A stretch of 64,000 bases of DNA from Kineococcus mangrovi (GTDB lineage: Bacteria; Actinomycetota; Actinomycetes; Actinomycetales; Kineococcaceae), in NCBI RefSeq assembly GCF_041320705.1, contig NZ_JBGGTQ010000009.1:1-64000 (forward strand). The letters run 5' to 3'. Each line of letters begins with the position of its first letter. Positions within the stretch are counted from its first letter, which is position 1. The notes beneath the pieces were generated by a model, which saw only the letters and a program-made list of their open reading frames with translations, was not told where the DNA came from and searched no databases. Positions 57,497 through 64,000 of the stretch are shown here, in pieces. The translations under genes and the position numbers were made by a program.

Positions 57497-58732
57497 TCAG
57501 CGTCGAGGCGCCCCGCGCCCCCCGCCGGTCCGGGGCAGGACCACCGCTGCCGAGGCCAGGAGCGCTGCGGAGACCGTGAACGCGCCCGGTGCGCCGAGCG
57601 TGCCCGTCAGCGACCCGGTCAGCGGTGACCCGACGGCCTGCCCGGCGGTCAGGGCGATGAACAGGGTGGCTGTCGTCGCACCCGCCAGGTGCGGGCGGAG
57701 GGCACCGGCCCACGCGATGAGCGTTCCGCTCAGCGCGGTGTACGACCCGCCGAACACGGCGGCGGCCACCCCGGCGGCCACGGGGTCGGCGGCCACCGCG
57801 GCGAGTCCGCAGGTGCTCGCGGCCGACAGCGCGACGGTCAGCACCCAGGTCCGGCGCAGCCCCAGCACGCGCACGGCGTCGCCGCTGAGGGCCCCCAGGA
57901 CGGCGGTCGCGCCGAGCAGCACCCACAGCACCGCGGTGGTCCGTTCGGGCAGACCGCCGACGGTGGTGAGCAGATCGCGCCCGAACGTCCACACGGCGGC
58001 GCTGCCCAGGCCGGCGAGCGTGGCGGCCAGCACCGGGCGCAGCAGGGCTCGCCAGGTCCCACCCTCCTCAGCGGTCGTGCCGGTGGACGCGGCGCCGTCC
58101 GGTCGCGGCCAGTCCGTGCGCCGGTCCACGACCGCGGCCGTCACGACCGCGGCGACGGCCGCCGCGATCCACACCGGCCGCCACGCCGAGGGGGCGAACA
58201 GCGCCACCAGCCCCGCCGCGACGACCCCGGCGCCGGTGCCGGCGTTGACGACGGCCTGACGACGGTCGGCCGCCCGCGGGGGTGCGGTGGCCGAGACCGC
58301 GACGACCAGGGCCGGTGAGGCCGCTCCCGCCGCGCTGCCGGCGATCAGCACCCCCGCGGCGAGGGCCGCGGCCGTCCAGGCGACCGAGACGAGCAGGGCA
58401 CCTGCGACGGCCGAGGCCGTGGCCAGCCACAGCACCGTCCGCGCTCCGCGGTGAGCGGTGACCCGCCGGGCGGTCAGGGCGCTCACGCAGTAGGCGGCGA
58501 AGCTGCCGGAGGCGATCAGCCCGGAGAGCGTCGGGGTGAGGGAGAACTCGGCCGACAGCTGGGTCAGCTGCAGACCGAAGCCGAAGCGGACCACCCCGTA
58601 GGTCACGGCGATGAGGCCGGCTCCTGCGGCCACGACGGCGCGCCCCGTCCGCTGCCGGGCCGGGGGCGGTGGTGCGCCGGTGCGAGGTCGCGCGGCGGGA
58701 CGGGGCGCTGGGTAGAACGATCGTTTCACCAT
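57497..58732 (-). CDS. MFS transporter of a TetR-controlled pair
   Basis: About 411 residues with twelve hydrophobic helices, for example VVAAGAGLIAVTYGVVRFGF and GLIASGSFAAYCVSALTARR between helices 2 and 3. The N-terminal 35 residues are polar and proline-rich. The ATG at 58732 overlaps the operator; later starts cannot be excluded. Similar to the YbfB/aromatic or drug exporter group. It is divergent from a TetR gene and probably repressed by it. Confidence 0.85.
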   Translation of the reverse strand: MVKRSFYPAPRPAARPRTGAPPPPARQRTGRAVVAAGAGLIAVTYGVVRFGFGLQLTQLSAEFSLTPTLSGLIASGSFAAYCVSALTARRVTAHRGARTVLWLATASAVAGALLVSVAWTAAALAAGVLIAGSAAGAASPALVVAVSATAPPRAADRRQAVVNAGTGAGVVAAGLVALFAPSAWRPVWIAAAVAAVVTAAVVDRRTDWPRPDGAASTGTTAEEGGTWRALLRPVLAATLAGLGSAAVWTFGRDLLTTVGGLPERTTAVLWVLLGATAVLGALSGDAVRVLGLRRTWVLTVALSAASTCGLAAVAADPVAAGVAAAVFGGSYTALSGTLIAWAGALRPHLAGATTATLFIALTAGQAVGSPLTGSLTGTLGAPGAFTVSAALLASAAVVLPRTGGGRGAPRR

Positions 58733-58743
58733 AACGCTCGTTA
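58716..58743. promoter_or_regulatory. Paired TetR operators
   Basis: AACGATCGTT (58716-58725) and TAACGCTCGTTA (58732-58743) are two palindromes of the form AACG-N2-CGTT, 17 bp apart, lying over the MFS start and just before the TetR start. They are likely the autoregulatory operator of the pair. Confidence 0.7.
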
Positions 58744-58753
58744 CAGTAGACCC

Positions 58754-59398
58754 GTGGCGACGACTCCCGCGAGACCAGGACGAGGACGACCGCAGGAGGG
58801 CTCGGCGCGCACGCGGCTGCTCGACGCCGCGGAGGAGCTGTTCTACGCGCACGGGGTCGCCGCCACCGGGGTCGACGCCGTCCTGCGTCGCGCGCACGTC
58901 GCGCCGGCCACGCTCTACGCCCACTTCGGCGGCAAGGACGGCCTGGTCACCGCCTACCTGCAACGCCGCCACGAGCGGTGGCGGCAGGTCTGGGACGCGG
59001 CGCTGGAACGGGCCGGTGACGACCCCGTGGCGCGGCTGCTGTCGGTCTTCGACGCCCTCGAAGACCTCCAGGACGTCCAGGACGCGGCGCGCGGGTGCGC
59101 CTTCCTGGCGGCGGCGGTGGAGGTCGTGGAACCGGAGCACCCGGCGCACGAGTGGCTGGCGGCCGACACCGGACTGCTCACGGGCCGGCTGCACCGCTGC
59201 GCCGCCGAGGCCGGCGCCCGGGACCCGGCGGCGCTGGCGGCGGAACTGCTGGTCGTCTACGACGGCGCGCTGGCCGCACGTGCGCGGCGCGCCATCGCGC
59301 CGCGGGGAGCCGTCACGGCCACCGCCTCCCGGTCGGCGGCGCGGGCGCTGGCCGTCGGTGCGGTCACGCGCCACCTCGCCGGGCCCGCCGGGTCCTGA
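58754..59398 (+). CDS. TetR/AcrR family regulator
   Basis: A 214-residue repressor. N-terminal HTH: SARTRLLDAAEELFYAHGVA then TGVDAVLRRAHVAPATLYAH and FGGKDGLVTAYL. The C-terminal ligand domain has FDALEDLQDVQDAARGCAFL, which is typical of regulators of small organic ligands. GTG start. It controls the divergent MFS gene through AACG-N2-CGTT operators. Ligand unknown. Confidence 0.92.
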   Translation: MATTPARPGRGRPQEGSARTRLLDAAEELFYAHGVAATGVDAVLRRAHVAPATLYAHFGGKDGLVTAYLQRRHERWRQVWDAALERAGDDPVARLLSVFDALEDLQDVQDAARGCAFLAAAVEVVEPEHPAHEWLAADTGLLTGRLHRCAAEAGARDPAALAAELLVVYDGALAARARRAIAPRGAVTATASRSAARALAVGAVTRHLAGPAGS

Positions 59399-59474
59399 GC
59401 GGGGACCCCGCCCGCGGTGCCCTCGGTCCCACCTCGGTCCCACTCCGGTCCCCTCCCTGCGGGACAGTGGGCGC

Positions 59475-60011
59475 GTGGAGATCCTGCGCGTCCCCGACCC
59501 CGTCCCGACCGACGTCCTCGCCGGGTTGGTGGAGGTGCTGCGGGACGCCGTCCGGGACGGTGCCAGCGTCGGCTTCGTCCGCGTCCCCGCGGTCCCGGAC
59601 GCCGAGCAGTGGTGGCGCCGGTACCTGCCCGGCGGGTGGACGTGGGTCGCGACCGAGGACGTGCGGGGATCCGTCCGGGTCGTCGGGACCGTCAGCCTGC
59701 GGGTCGACCAGCCCGAGAACGCCCCCCACCGCGCGGAACTCACCAAACTGCTGGTCCACCGCGACTCCCGGGGTCGTGGGGTCGCCTCCCGCCTGGTGGC
59801 CGCGGCCGAGGGGGCGGCCGCGGTGGCCGGGCGGACCCTGCTGGTGCTGGACACCGAGACGGGCAGCCCGGCGGAGGGCGTCTACGAACGCTGGGGTTGG
59901 CACCGCGTCGGGACGATCGAGGGGTACGCGGTGAACCCCGCGGGGCACGTGGCGGGCACGACGGTGTTCAGCAAGGTCCTGCGCGCGTCGTCGGCAGCCG
60001 CCGGCGGCTGA
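59475..60011 (+). CDS. GNAT family N-acetyltransferase
   Basis: A 178-residue acetyltransferase. The acetyl-CoA loop is LLVHRDSRGRGVASRLVAAA (R-x-x-G-x-G/A motif), followed by LLVLDTETGSPAEGVYERWG and VGTIEGYAVNP. The first strands contain TVSLRVDQPENAPHRAEL. GTG start, no clear ribosome binding site. Substrate unknown. Not tightly linked to neighbours. Confidence 0.88.
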   Translation: MEILRVPDPVPTDVLAGLVEVLRDAVRDGASVGFVRVPAVPDAEQWWRRYLPGGWTWVATEDVRGSVRVVGTVSLRVDQPENAPHRAELTKLLVHRDSRGRGVASRLVAAAEGAAAVAGRTLLVLDTETGSPAEGVYERWGWHRVGTIEGYAVNPAGHVAGTTVFSKVLRASSAAAGG

Positions 60012-60062
60012 GACCGGGGCCGCGGACCGGCCGGGCACCTGTGGTCGGGCGCCTGTGGCAGG

Positions 60063-60476
60063 GTGACCCGCGTGAGGGCCCCGCACCGCGACCCGCGCCC
60101 GGTCGCGCTGGTCGCCGTCGGCGGCGCGGCGGGAACCCTGGTGCGCTGGGCCGTCTCCGCGGCCGTGCCCGCGCTGGACGGGTTCCCGGCCGCGACCCTG
60201 ACCGTCAACGTGGTGGGGTCGTTCCTGCTCGGCTGGTTGCTGGAGCACCTGGTCCGCCGCGGTCCCGAGACGCCCACCGCACTGCGCTGGCGGCTCGGGC
60301 TCGGCACCGGGTTCTGCGGCGGGTTGACGACGTGGTCGAGCTTCGCGGTCGAGGTGGACCGCCTCACCAGCACCGGCTCGGCGGGGACGGCCGCCGGGTA
60401 CGTCCTCGCCTCCCTCGCCGCGGGTCTGCTGGCCGTCGTGGCGGGCGTCGCGCTCGCCGGGCGGAGGGCGCGGTGA
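60063..60476 (+). CDS. crcB: Fluoride channel subunit, CrcB family (first)
   Basis: A 137-residue four-helix Fluc channel subunit. Motifs are GGAAGTLVRWAVS, NVVGSFLLGWLLEH and the central GTGFCGGLTTWSSFAVE with the Thr/Ser and Phe residues lining the fluoride path. The first 14 residues are Arg-rich, so a GTG three codons later could be the start. Two adjacent crcB genes usually encode a heterodimer. No fluoride riboswitch is visible in the 51 bases upstream. The next gene starts within its stop codon (GTGA). Confidence 0.9.
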   Translation: MTRVRAPHRDPRPVALVAVGGAAGTLVRWAVSAAVPALDGFPAATLTVNVVGSFLLGWLLEHLVRRGPETPTALRWRLGLGTGFCGGLTTWSSFAVEVDRLTSTGSAGTAAGYVLASLAAGLLAVVAGVALAGRRAR

Positions 60477-60835
60477 TCGCGCTGCTGGCGCTCGCCGGCG
60501 GGGCGGGGGCGGCGGCCCGCTTCGTCGTCGACGGTGCGGTCCGCACGCGGTGGCCCTCGCAGTTCCCCTGGGGGGTCCTCCTCGTCAACGTCCTGGGCTC
60601 CCTCCTGCTCGGCGTCCTCACGGGCCTCGTCCTCGAAGGGGCCGACGAGCGGTGGGGGCTCGTGCTCGGCGTGGGGTTCTGCGGGGGGTTCACGACGTTC
60701 AGCACCGCGATGACCGACACCGTGCGCCTCGCGCGGGACGGTTCGGTGCGCCTGGCCCTGGTGAACCTGCTCGGCACGCTCGCGGCGACGGTCACGGCGG
60801 CCGCTCTCGGGCTCGGGCTGGCCGTCCTGGGGTGA
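60473..60835 (+). CDS. crcB: Fluoride channel subunit, CrcB family (second)
   Basis: A 120-residue Fluc subunit: GGAGAAARFVVDGAVR, NVLGSLLLGVLTGLVL and GVGFCGGFTTFSTAMTDT. The Phe and Ser/Thr of the pore are present. GTGA overlap with the first crcB. Its stop again overlaps the sigma factor start (GTGA), tying fluoride channel and sigma genes in one operon. Confidence 0.9.
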   Translation: MIALLALAGGAGAAARFVVDGAVRTRWPSQFPWGVLLVNVLGSLLLGVLTGLVLEGADERWGLVLGVGFCGGFTTFSTAMTDTVRLARDGSVRLALVNLLGTLAATVTAAALGLGLAVLG

Positions 60836-61395
60836 GACGGCGCAGGTCCTCGCGCGCGGGAGGCAACCGGGGAGTCGCCCCCGTCGTCCTGGACGGCGTG
60901 GGAGAGGGGTTCGAGGAGTTCGTGGCCACCGGCAGCGACCGCCTGCTGCGGCTCGCGCTGCTGCTGACGGGCGACCGGAACCTCGCCGAGGACCTCCTGC
61001 AGGACGTGCTCGAGCGCATGTACGTCGGGTGGCGGCGCATCGAGGACCCGCACGCCTACGCCCGCACGGCCCTGGCCCGCCGGGTCACCGACCGCTGGCG
61101 GCAGAAGGGCCGTCGCCCGCGCGAGGTCGAGCTGGAGGACTGGCACGGCGAGGCCGTGGGCGACGGAGCGGCCGCGCGGGCCGAACGGTCGCGGGTGGTG
61201 GAGGTGCTGCGGGCGCTGCCGCCGCGGCAGCGCGCGGTCATCGTCCTGCGGTACTTCGAGGACTGGTCCGAGGAGCAGATCGCCGACCAGCTCGACGTGT
61301 CGCGCGGAACGGTCAAGAGCCAGGCGTCCAAGGGGCTGCGGACCCTGCGGACCCTCGTCGGGGAGGAGGTGGGTGCGCGGTGGACGAGCAGCTGA
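60832..61395 (+). CDS. SigE-family RNA polymerase sigma factor
   Basis: A 187-residue ECF-type sigma factor of the actinobacterial SigE-like subgroup. Region 2: LLRLALLLTGDRNLAEDLLQ and DVLERMYVGWRRIEDPHAYA. Region 4: VEVLRALPPRQRAVIVLRYF then DWSEEQIADQLDVSRGTVKS and QASKGLRTLR. The first 25 residues (VRRRRSSRAGGNR) are unusual; the start is taken at the GTGA overlap, though later GTGs exist. It overlaps the next gene by 16 bases, encoding a one-pass membrane protein, as sigma/anti-sigma pairs often do. Confidence 0.88.
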   Translation: MRRRRSSRAGGNRGVAPVVLDGVGEGFEEFVATGSDRLLRLALLLTGDRNLAEDLLQDVLERMYVGWRRIEDPHAYARTALARRVTDRWRQKGRRPREVELEDWHGEAVGDGAAARAERSRVVEVLRALPPRQRAVIVLRYFEDWSEEQIADQLDVSRGTVKSQASKGLRTLRTLVGEEVGARWTSS

Positions 61396-61856
61396 GCACC
61401 TGGGAGGAGCGGTTGCGCCGCGAGCTCGACGTCGCCGTGCGGGAGGTGCGGGCCCCCGGCGACCTCGTCGCCGCGGTGCGCGCCGGTGGGCGCCGCCGGC
61501 TGCGGCGTCGCCGTGCCCTGCTGGCCGTCCCGGCCGTCGTCGCGGTGGCCGGCGGGGCGGTGTGGGCCGCGGCGAGCGACCCGGCGGCGCGGCCGGTGCC
61601 ACCCGCCGCCAGCGGTCCGGCCGGTCCGCAGGCCCCCGCCCCCGTCGCGCCGGCGCCGGCCGTCCCCTCGCCGCCGGAGGACCCGCAGGTGGGGGAACCG
61701 GCCGACGAGGCGGCGGCCGCCGACCGGTTCCTCGAGCAGTACCGGTTCGCCGACGCGCAGCGGCTGGCCTCGGTGTGGAACGTGGACACCTGGGAGGCCA
61801 AGGTCGAGGGCGGCCGGAGGCTGCTGGCGGGCGAGTCGATCCCGGAACTGCCGTGA
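61380..61856 (+). CDS. One-pass membrane protein, candidate anti-sigma factor
   Basis: A 158-residue protein. A charged cytoplasmic part of about 45 residues (LSTWEERLRRELDVAVREVR) is followed by one helix (ALLAVPAVVAVAGGAVWAAA), a Pro/Ala-rich extracellular linker, then a C-terminal domain of about 46 residues: DRFLEQYRFADAQRLASVWN, VDTWEAKVEGGRRLLAGESI and PELP. This domain is the same as the repeats of the next gene. It lacks the ZAS zinc motif HxxxCxxC of many anti-sigma factors. Overlap with the sigma gene and topology still suggest control of that sigma. Confidence 0.75.
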   Translation: MDEQLSTWEERLRRELDVAVREVRAPGDLVAAVRAGGRRRLRRRRALLAVPAVVAVAGGAVWAAASDPAARPVPPAASGPAGPQAPAPVAPAPAVPSPPEDPQVGEPADEAAAADRFLEQYRFADAQRLASVWNVDTWEAKVEGGRRLLAGESIPELP

Positions 61857-61915
61857 CCACGAACCGCCGTGACCACCCGGGCAACCCCGCCGCGGGTTCC
61901 GGCGTCTGGACAGGC

Positions 61916-62647
61916 ATGAGCGGAACTCCGAACCGAACCCCTGCCCAGCGCCGCGCCGCCCGCGCCGTCACCGCGACCGTCGTCGCGGGTGGTCTGGCCC
62001 TGGCCGGCGGCAGTGCCTACGCCCAGTCCCGCGACGCCGGTGCGGAGCGACCCGTCCCGGTCGCGGCGGCCCCCGTCGCGGAACCCGTCGCGGTCCCCGC
62101 CGGGGAGCCCGTCGCCCGGGACGGCGCCGACGACGTCGCCCGGCAGACGTACTTCGCCGCGGGGTACACCTACGACGACGCCGTCGTCCTCGGTGCGCAG
62201 TGGAACCTCGACCCGTTCGAGGCCAAGGCCGAGGCCGGGCGGCGGCTGACCGACGGGCAGACGCTGCCCGTCGCCCCGGGGTCGAGTCCCGTGGCGGTCG
62301 ACGGGTCCGTGGCGGCGGTGGACGCCTTCTACGCCGCGGGGTACACCTACGACGACGCCGTCGTCCTCGGTGCGCAGTGGAACCTCGACTCGTTCGAGGC
62401 CAAGGCCGAGGCCGGACGGCGGCTGACCGCCGGGCAGACGCTGCCCGTCGCCCCGGGTTCCAGCCCCGTCGCGGACCCCGTGGCGGGCGACGGGTCCTCG
62501 GACGCAGTGGGCGCCTTCTTCGCGGCGGGGTACACCTACGACGACGCCGTCGCGCTGGCGGCCGTGTGGAGCGTGGAACCCTACGAGGCCAAGGTCGCCG
62601 CCGGGCAGCGGATCCTGGCCGGGGAAACCCTGCCGGTGGTCTCCTGA
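61916..62647 (+). CDS. Secreted protein with three AAGYTYDDA repeats
   Basis: A 243-residue exported protein: ARAVTATVVAGGLALAGGSA then YAQS cleavage site. After a Pro/Val-rich linker, three repeats of about 46 residues follow: FAAGYTYDDAVVLGAQWNLD plus PFEAKAEAGRRLTDGQTLPV; YAAGYTYDDAVVLGAQWNLD plus SFEAKAEAGRRLTAGQTLPV; FAAGYTYDDAVALAAVWSVE plus PYEAKVAAGQRILAGETLPV. The first two are almost identical in DNA. I recognise no named family. The same unit ends the membrane protein before it. It may be a secreted ligand or surface layer component for that sensor. Confidence 0.8.
   Translation: MSGTPNRTPAQRRAARAVTATVVAGGLALAGGSAYAQSRDAGAERPVPVAAAPVAEPVAVPAGEPVARDGADDVARQTYFAAGYTYDDAVVLGAQWNLDPFEAKAEAGRRLTDGQTLPVAPGSSPVAVDGSVAAVDAFYAAGYTYDDAVVLGAQWNLDSFEAKAEAGRRLTAGQTLPVAPGSSPVADPVAGDGSSDAVGAFFAAGYTYDDAVALAAVWSVEPYEAKVAAGQRILAGETLPVVS
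62152..62640 (+). repeat. Three in-frame repeats encoding the AAGYTYDDA domain
   Basis: Units begin at about 62152, 62329 and 62515 (spacing 177 then 186-189 bases). Units 1 and 2 share long identical DNA stretches around GTACACCTACGACGACGCCG and CGGCGGCTGACC, while unit 3 has diverged, so units 1 and 2 are the youngest duplication. Confidence 0.85.
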
Positions 62648-63609
62648 ACGGTCTGCCCCGCACGGGTTTCGAGGTCGAGCTGCTCGCCCCGCGGGGGGCG
62701 AGCCGGCTCGACCTCGCCGTCGAGGTCGCCCGCCGGTGCGCGGGGCGGGTGGTCCGGCGTTTCCACGTCGACACCGAGTCCTCGGCGGCACCGGGGGTGC
62801 GCACGTTCTGGCACCTGACCCCCGCGTTCGACGTCGTCGACGGCACCGGGCGGTTGCGCTGCTCGCTGGTGGACGACACCACGATCGTGGCCGACCTGGA
62901 CGCGGCCGCCCCACCGCGTCCGGGGTGGTTCCGCGTGCTGAGCGACGACCCCCGGTTGCTGCGGCTCGTGCAGCGGTACGCCGACCCGGCGGAGGGGATC
63001 GGGTCGGTGCTCGCGCCGGTCGCGGAGGTCTTCGGGTCGCGGGTCGTCGAGGTCGGTGGCGTGCACCGGCTCGACGACCCCGCCGGGGCCACGGTCGCCC
63101 TCGCGGCCCCGTTGCCGGGGGAGCGGGAACGTCCCTGCGAACTGGTCACCCCGCCCCTCACCGGTGACCACGCGGAACGCCTCGAAGAACTCCTCGCCCC
63201 CGCCCGGGACCTGGGTTTCTCGGTGCCGCTGGAGGCGGCCGTCCACGTGAACCTCGACGCCGGGCCGTTCCGGGACGTCGGGGGGTTCCGGCGCGTCGTG
63301 GAGTTCTTCGCCGGGCGCGAGGAACTGCACCGGAGGTTCGGCACGAACCCGAACTGCCGTCGGCTGGGACCGTTGCCCGCCGACCTCGTGGACCTCGTGC
63401 AGCGCCGCTGGCCGGACTGGGATTCGCTGCGGGCGGCGGCGGCGCGCACGGCGGTGACGAAGTACGCCGACGTCGACGTGACCCGCGTGCTGGGGGTCCG
63501 GCCCGGGCCGGACGTGCTGGAGGTCCGGCTGCTGCCGGGGTCGGCCGACGGGGTGGCCATCGCCCGGCAGGCCGCTCAGCTCTGGGGGTCCTTGCGTTCC
63601 ACGAGGTAG
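62644..63609 (+). CDS. Putative amidoligase
   Basis: About 321 residues, resembling the amidoligase family (PF12224), ATP-dependent enzymes that join amines or amino acids to carboxyl groups. Family-like residues are the N-terminal TGFEVELLAPRGASR, the VTPPLTG segment (ELVTPPL), EAAVHVNLDAGPFRDVGGFR with the H-x-N-x-D pattern, and the helical RRVVEFFAGREELHRRF. No ATG, GTG or TTG occurs near the expected start. The best choice is a CTG at 62644 overlapping the upstream TGA (CTGA). Last gene of the crcB-sigma operon. Substrate unknown; surface or peptide modification is an inference from context. Confidence 0.7.
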   Translation: MNGLPRTGFEVELLAPRGASRLDLAVEVARRCAGRVVRRFHVDTESSAAPGVRTFWHLTPAFDVVDGTGRLRCSLVDDTTIVADLDAAAPPRPGWFRVLSDDPRLLRLVQRYADPAEGIGSVLAPVAEVFGSRVVEVGGVHRLDDPAGATVALAAPLPGERERPCELVTPPLTGDHAERLEELLAPARDLGFSVPLEAAVHVNLDAGPFRDVGGFRRVVEFFAGREELHRRFGTNPNCRRLGPLPADLVDLVQRRWPDWDSLRAAAARTAVTKYADVDVTRVLGVRPGPDVLEVRLLPGSADGVAIARQAAQLWGSLRSTR

Positions 63610-63842
63610 GTGTGGCCGTTCCGGGTCACGCGTTCCCACTGCGCGTACCCGGCCCGCGCCTCGGCGTCGGTGCGCGGCCCGCGCTGCGGGCCCTCCTCGT
63701 GGGAGACCTGGGCGGGGCCGGTGAAGCTGAACACCGCGTCGAGGAACAGGTCGACGAGCTTGTTCCTCGACGTCGGCCGCCGCAGGCGGGCCGGGGTGCC
63801 GGTGTCGTTCCGGGGCGCCGGTCCGGGCGATCGTTCGTGCAT
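63576..63842 (-). CDS. Small conserved hypothetical protein
   Basis: An 88-residue soluble protein: a Pro/Arg-rich start, then NKLVDLFLDAVFSFTGPAQV and GYAQWERVTRNGHTYLVERK. Short beta-rich C-terminus, no family recognised. It overlaps the 3' end of the amidoligase gene by 34 bases, tail to tail. A TACACT -10-like box ends 9 bases before the ATG, so a leaderless transcript is likely. Nothing else is supported in the last 155 bases of the window. Confidence 0.6.
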   Translation of the reverse strand: MHERSPGPAPRNDTGTPARLRRPTSRNKLVDLFLDAVFSFTGPAQVSHEEGPQRGPRTDAEARAGYAQWERVTRNGHTYLVERKDPQS

Positions 63843-64000
63843 GAATCGTCAGTGTACGCGGGAGCGTCGGCCCCCTCCACGTGGGCCGGGTCACGCCCGC
63901 CCCACGTCGTCCGCGGCCTCCGGCGCCCGGTTCCGCGGGGTTCCCGGCCCGCGCTGGCACCGGACCGTTCACCGCTCCGTGGTAGGTGTGTGCCCATGCC

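Follow-up and report, generated by a model that had tools for sequence, protein, structure and literature searches.

Near the end of a 64,000-nucleotide stretch of Kineococcus mangrovi DNA (the window), two fluoride channel genes, a sigma factor gene and genes for a membrane protein, a secreted repeat protein and an amidoligase follow one another, which raises the question of whether they form one unit and of what such a unit might do. An earlier note on this DNA had read these six genes, all on the plus strand between 60063 and 63609, as a single operon, and all six are present there. We find that the grouping is a four-gene module standing behind two unrelated crcB genes. The account of the module that we favor, and that we hold with confidence evenly balanced by doubt, is an ECF sigma/anti-sigma switch that would control an exported repeat protein together with a cytoplasmic amide-bond-forming enzyme.

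Gene layout of the locus

The features of the locus are as follows.

60063-60476, plus strand: crcB1, fluoride channel family (CRCB, E 4e-27); a neighbor, outside the module
60473-60835, plus strand: crcB2 (CRCB, E 1e-24); a neighbor, outside the module
60862-60888, plus strand: P1, ECF-type promoter element GGCAACC-N16-CGTC, preceding the sigma-membrane pair
60898-61395, plus strand: SigE-family ECF sigma factor, 165 aa, with corrected GTG start (TIGR02983)
61380-61856, plus strand: one-pass membrane protein with Arg-rich N-terminus, TM segment, linker and one outside repeat
61880-61906, plus strand: P2, the same promoter element again, 9 nt upstream of the repeat-gene ATG
61916-62647, plus strand: secreted protein with a signal peptide and three 43-aa three-helix repeats
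62644-63609, plus strand: amidoligase (PF12224) with a GS-like fold and a probable CTG start overlapping the repeat-gene stop

The physical linkage that had been claimed for the six genes holds in part: crcB1 and crcB2 overlap at a GTGA, the sigma and membrane genes share 16 nt, and the repeat and amidoligase genes meet at a CTGA, but the "GTGA" that seemed to join crcB2 to the sigma gene at 60832 is, on present evidence, a wrong start. The membrane and repeat genes are separated by a 59-nt gap that contains P2 and do not overlap. The one-unit reading survives for the sigma, membrane, secreted repeat and amidoligase genes, which make up a conserved module, and not for the two crcB genes. On the minus strand a small gene (63576-63842), for which Pfam gave no match at E <= 0.001, faces the amidoligase and overlaps its end; frames resembling it occupy the corresponding position in loci L025, L028 and L029.

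GTG 60898 is most likely the start of the sigma gene, because of the position of the promoter, the comparison of upstream regions across loci and the equal score of the family model. This codon lies 62 nt after crcB2 and 9 nt downstream of P1; P1 falls inside the supposed N-terminus of the frame opened at 60832, GTG 60832 being no more than an early start codon of that frame. The TIGR02983 score is nearly unchanged by the choice, amounting to 160.5 bits for the shorter protein and 160.9 bits for the longer one (cut-off 141.55), and along with the Sigma70 r2 and r4 regions that Pfam finds in the protein, it bears out the SigE-family assignment made in the earlier note. Two other members score close to the cut-off, L079 passing narrowly at 141.8 and L101 falling just short at 139.1. 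In Actinoplanes-type loci (e.g., L101, L105 and L126) only about 8 nt separate the -10 element from the start codon of the sigma gene, whose messages may therefore be leaderless.

The crcB pair, by contrast with the sigma gene, was rejected as a member of the unit. Over the 93 loci compared (14 of a first set and 79 named loci, at least five places being in both sets), crcB adjoins the sigma gene at just two places, the window and L025; in L026 and L029 it lies several kilobases away. The six-gene grouping had implied a fluoride-response operon containing both crcB genes; for such an operon speaks the position of crcB1-crcB2 directly upstream of the module in these same two places, whereas the linkage is absent from the other loci compared, a promoter element separates crcB2 from the sigma gene and no Rfam match at E <= 1, and hence no fluoride riboswitch, was found within 58000-64000. 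We consequently give this reading next to no credence.

Conservation of the module

A profile built from 12 amidoligases gave 199 matches, the best 80 of which yielded 79 named loci; all counts over these loci therefore lean toward close relatives and include many congeners. Most belong to Cellulomonas, Promicromonospora, and Actinoplanes and its relatives, with Kineosporia, Kineococcus and others also represented. Within this best-80 sample, repeats occur in 78 of the 79 loci and a sigma gene in 66; the gene-order search thus runs counter to the prospect, raised in the earlier note as an objection to its own reading, that amidoligase and repeat genes occur without the sigma gene in most relatives. 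Repeats were not found at the cyanobacterial L137, they lie on the opposite strand in the alphaproteobacterial L134, and the region ahead of the first amidoligase in L076 showed none. No sigma gene was found in L062, L067, L069, L070, L074, L083, L109, L133, L134 and L137, nor in L063, L068 and L093, which are cut at contig edges.

Gene order varies between groups while the gene set stays together. In the window type, the sigma gene is followed by genes for a single-repeat TM protein, the secreted repeat protein and the amidoligase; the Actinoplanes type runs sigma, TM protein with two to three repeats, amidoligase; the Cellulomonas/Promicromonospora type begins with the secreted repeat protein and the amidoligase, followed by sigma and the TM repeat protein; and Kineosporia and others have a repeat protein and amidoligase with no sigma gene found. 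The Cellulomonas-type order is also seen in Kineococcus vitellinus (L078), which may mean horizontal transfer. When long reading frames were clustered across 81 loci (78 named and three of the first set), by position and with shadow frames included, the clusters present in at least 30 loci lay only over the sigma, repeat and amidoligase genes, the next cluster comprising 26 loci.

The repeat and the amidoligase form an almost obligate pair. Among 297 genomes of the order, 19 carry the amidoligase (E <= 1e-10; ten of them of the window's own genus, eight genera in all) and 20 carry the repeat (E <= 1e-6), these including all 19, and the repeat-only twentieth genome is 76% complete; G004, an assembly of 1060 contigs, yielded neither. 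Across the phylum set, both were found in the same two of 396 genomes, one being the window's own. Sigma and repeats occur without an adjacent amidoligase on contig C2 of the window's own genome and on C195 of G003. The former is a second sigma copy (L035; G000 contig 2, 304690-306281) with the same promoter element, followed by a TM two-repeat protein in whose last repeat a Q replaces the near-invariant K.

Promoter elements

On either strand of the window, the exact motif followed by 9 nt and an ATG or GTG occurs only at P1 and P2. In the first set (L025-L038), a sigma gene was found at 11 loci, and 10 of them (L025-L032, L035 and L036, two of the ten being from the window's own genome) carry the exact element a short distance before the conserved sigma start; the miss, L034, from another genus of the same family, has TGCACG, which differs by one base from the Actinoplanes-type element. 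The 9-nt spacing is not general, the start lying further from the element in L030-L032 and L035. An exact P2 is present in three (L025, L028 and L036) of the six first-set loci with separate membrane and repeat genes (L025-L029 and L036).

A wider pattern (GGCAACC, TGCACA, TCCACA or TCAACA, then 14-18 nt, then CGTC or CGTT) precedes the first gene in 52 of the 66 sigma loci among the best 80 of 199 matches. Since this pattern was derived from the very upstream regions in which it was counted, the loci without sigma and the reverse strand serve as meaningful controls. It was found in three of the 11 assessed loci lacking a sigma gene (L063, L068 and L093), in all of which the contig stops shortly after the amidoligase, so that a sigma gene may lie beyond its end, and in none of the other eight, five of which have full flanks, the contigs of L069, L074 and L083 being short. 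On the reverse strand it was found in none of 77 loci, L134 and L137 being excluded from the promoter count for want of plus-strand repeats, and its overall density is 0.028 per 330 nt of the loci, true sites included. Several of the 14 sigma loci without an exact match show a one-base variant (e.g., L061, L088 and L130); among the 14, L078 and L100 begin at the very end of their contigs, and L076 and L100 were wrongly assigned by the script.

The earlier note had held that separate promoters splitting the cluster would count against it, and internal elements are indeed present at P1 and P2. As both are copies of one sigma-type promoter, however, they would tie the sigma-membrane and repeat-amidoligase pairs together in regulation. 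The regulatory half of our explanation has good support at the level of sequence.

The exact motif occurs 22 times in the window's own genome, versus three times for the pattern read backwards, an excess much of which may come from Gly-Asn codons. Two of the 22 fall within the window, a third belongs to the second sigma locus (C2:304690), and the remaining 19 are separate stretches. In three of these (L173, L174 and L179) a GTG lies exactly 9 nt downstream; all three candidates sit inside coding-looking frames, and we make no claim of a wider regulon. Ten other genomes gave 146 or so motif matches, among the matches listed, of which L187 was examined.

Membrane protein and repeat family

ECF systems commonly have an overlapping downstream gene for an N-in/C-out membrane anti-sigma factor and a CGTC-type promoter element before the operon. 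The membrane protein of the window occupies that position, and its C-terminus consists of a further copy of the secreted protein's repeat, which agrees with the kinship between the two proteins that had been proposed for the locus. Among the 66 named sigma loci (from the best 80 of 199 matches), a TM-repeat protein directly follows sigma in 65, the exception, L129, ending at a contig edge. Its N-terminal segment, between the sigma stop and the TM, is short (29-89 residues) and Arg-rich. In proteins following sigma, Arg and Lys together average 4.7 per 15 residues before the TM and 0.45 after it; the same bias (4.1 and 0.6) is seen in repeat proteins not beside a sigma gene, as expected for signal peptides, and therefore supports topology only. 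The one-pass topology with a cytoplasmic N-terminus is accordingly read only from charge bias and hydropathy. From the placement of the membrane protein it is plausible that it acts as an anti-sigma factor and restrains the sigma factor.

The repeat is a 43-residue, three-helix unit with Trp in 297 of 297 copies and Lys in 294, the copies having been collected by a profile built from them and about five places being counted twice. Two of the three Lys exceptions lie in L133, which has an amidoligase, and this near-invariant Lys could be structural. AlphaFold2 gives the secreted protein a pLDDT of mostly 90-97 inside the repeats and low values in the linkers. No Pfam family matched the repeat protein above cut-off, and whereas the sigma and enzyme families are of known kinds, the repeat domain is to that extent undescribed.

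The amidoligase

The amidoligase of the window scores 42.9 against PF12224 (gathering threshold 22), and all 30 members searched match this family at E <= 0.01. Its fold is GS/GCS-like, the motifs GxExE, RER..E, K and ExR are invariant, and 48 of 50 listed matches in a second look were glutamine synthetases, GmaS, YbdK, Dop or PafA. The enzyme is thus predicted to form amide bonds, and no export signal was seen on it. An apparent CTG start overlapping the repeat-gene TGA is seen in seven of nine first-set loci of the genus (the window at 62644-62647, L025, L026, L027, L030, L032 and L033); L028 and L029 have a GTG start shortly downstream, and many Actinoplanes-type loci have GTG at the place of the CTG.

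Proposed mechanism and alternatives

Given the layout and the promoter elements, ECF control with a membrane anti-sigma factor is the natural reading. The SigE-family factor would transcribe its own gene and that of the membrane protein from P1, and the repeat and amidoligase genes from P2, or in other genera from one shared operon promoter. The cytoplasmic N-terminus of the membrane protein would hold the sigma factor until the outside repeats sense the state of the envelope. The pairing of repeat and amidoligase, also seen where no sigma gene was found, is the strongest hint that the two act on each other, and the repeat protein may thus be the substrate of the enzyme, amidated or conjugated before export; with an exported substrate and a cytoplasmic enzyme, modification would have to precede export. 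The near-invariant Lys of each repeat would be the best candidate site, and secreted repeats, once modified, might in turn act back on those of the membrane sensor. In its most specific form, whereby the GS-fold ligase conjugates something to the repeat Lys and the anti-sigma repeats read this modification and set the circuit's sigma factor, the proposal would amount to a novel type of protein-modification circuit, and we consider it unlikely.

An enzyme-substrate relation is our first choice and a receptor-product relation our second, the data not separating them. According to the latter, the amidoligase would produce a small peptide or a compound linked to the wall, for which the repeats, membrane-bound and secreted alike, would serve as receptors or carriers and not be substrates, and the switch would sense its own product. 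Operon-linked peptide ligases, including COOH-NH2 ligases, often serve the making of peptide-derived metabolites and peptidoglycan according to PMC4431377, and the apparent lack of an export signal on the enzyme would likewise suit a small product. The cyanobacterial amidoligase relative at L137 (6971-10172), where no repeats were found, has a PGA_cap (capsule synthesis) gene alongside, which also points in this direction; no further family, such as a transporter or a second ligase of the sort a pathway could require, recurs in most of the 81 loci, however, and we regard a small product as a tentative possibility, to be taken seriously but falling well short of even chances.

Doubt may also be cast on the switch itself. 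The membrane protein matches no Pfam family at E <= 1, and so has no known anti-sigma domain; it might hence not be an anti-sigma factor at all, the sigma factor being governed by its own promoter or by another partner and the four genes being merely co-regulated envelope genes. The persistence of the TM-repeat protein behind sigma in all but one of the sigma loci of the best-80 sample, whether sigma stands before or after the amidoligase, argues against this, and we judge it improbable.

Relation to known systems

A title- and abstract-level search of the openly accessible literature found no account of the combination of sigma factor, repeat and amidoligase. The module places an uncharacterised subfamily of amidoligases, and a repeat domain to which no Pfam model could be matched, in a genetic setting; it is present in Kineococcus, in Actinoplanes and its relatives, in Cellulomonas and Promicromonospora, and elsewhere. 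Should the repeats be modified, actinobacteria would possess a hitherto unrecognised way of modifying proteins, linked to export and controlled by an ECF factor.

GS/GCS-like carboxylate-amine ligases (Amidoligase_2) are reportedly the subject of work by Iyer et al. from 2009, which may describe part of the combination. The enzyme resembles that family (PF12224) in scoring above the gathering threshold, in its GS-like fold and in its conserved acidic and basic residues, and differs in that the subfamily found here is accompanied by a single repeat protein and in most cases by a sigma factor. The Pup ligase PafA and the depupylase Dop, with Pup, offer an analogy only, as the partner in the module is exported and predicted to be folded. 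With ECF sigma factors paired to one-pass anti-sigma factors the module shares a sigma factor of regions 2 and 4, an overlapping downstream membrane gene and a CGTC-type element; unlike them, its membrane protein is without a known anti-sigma domain, and the outer repeat of that protein is also secreted on its own and accompanies an amidoligase.
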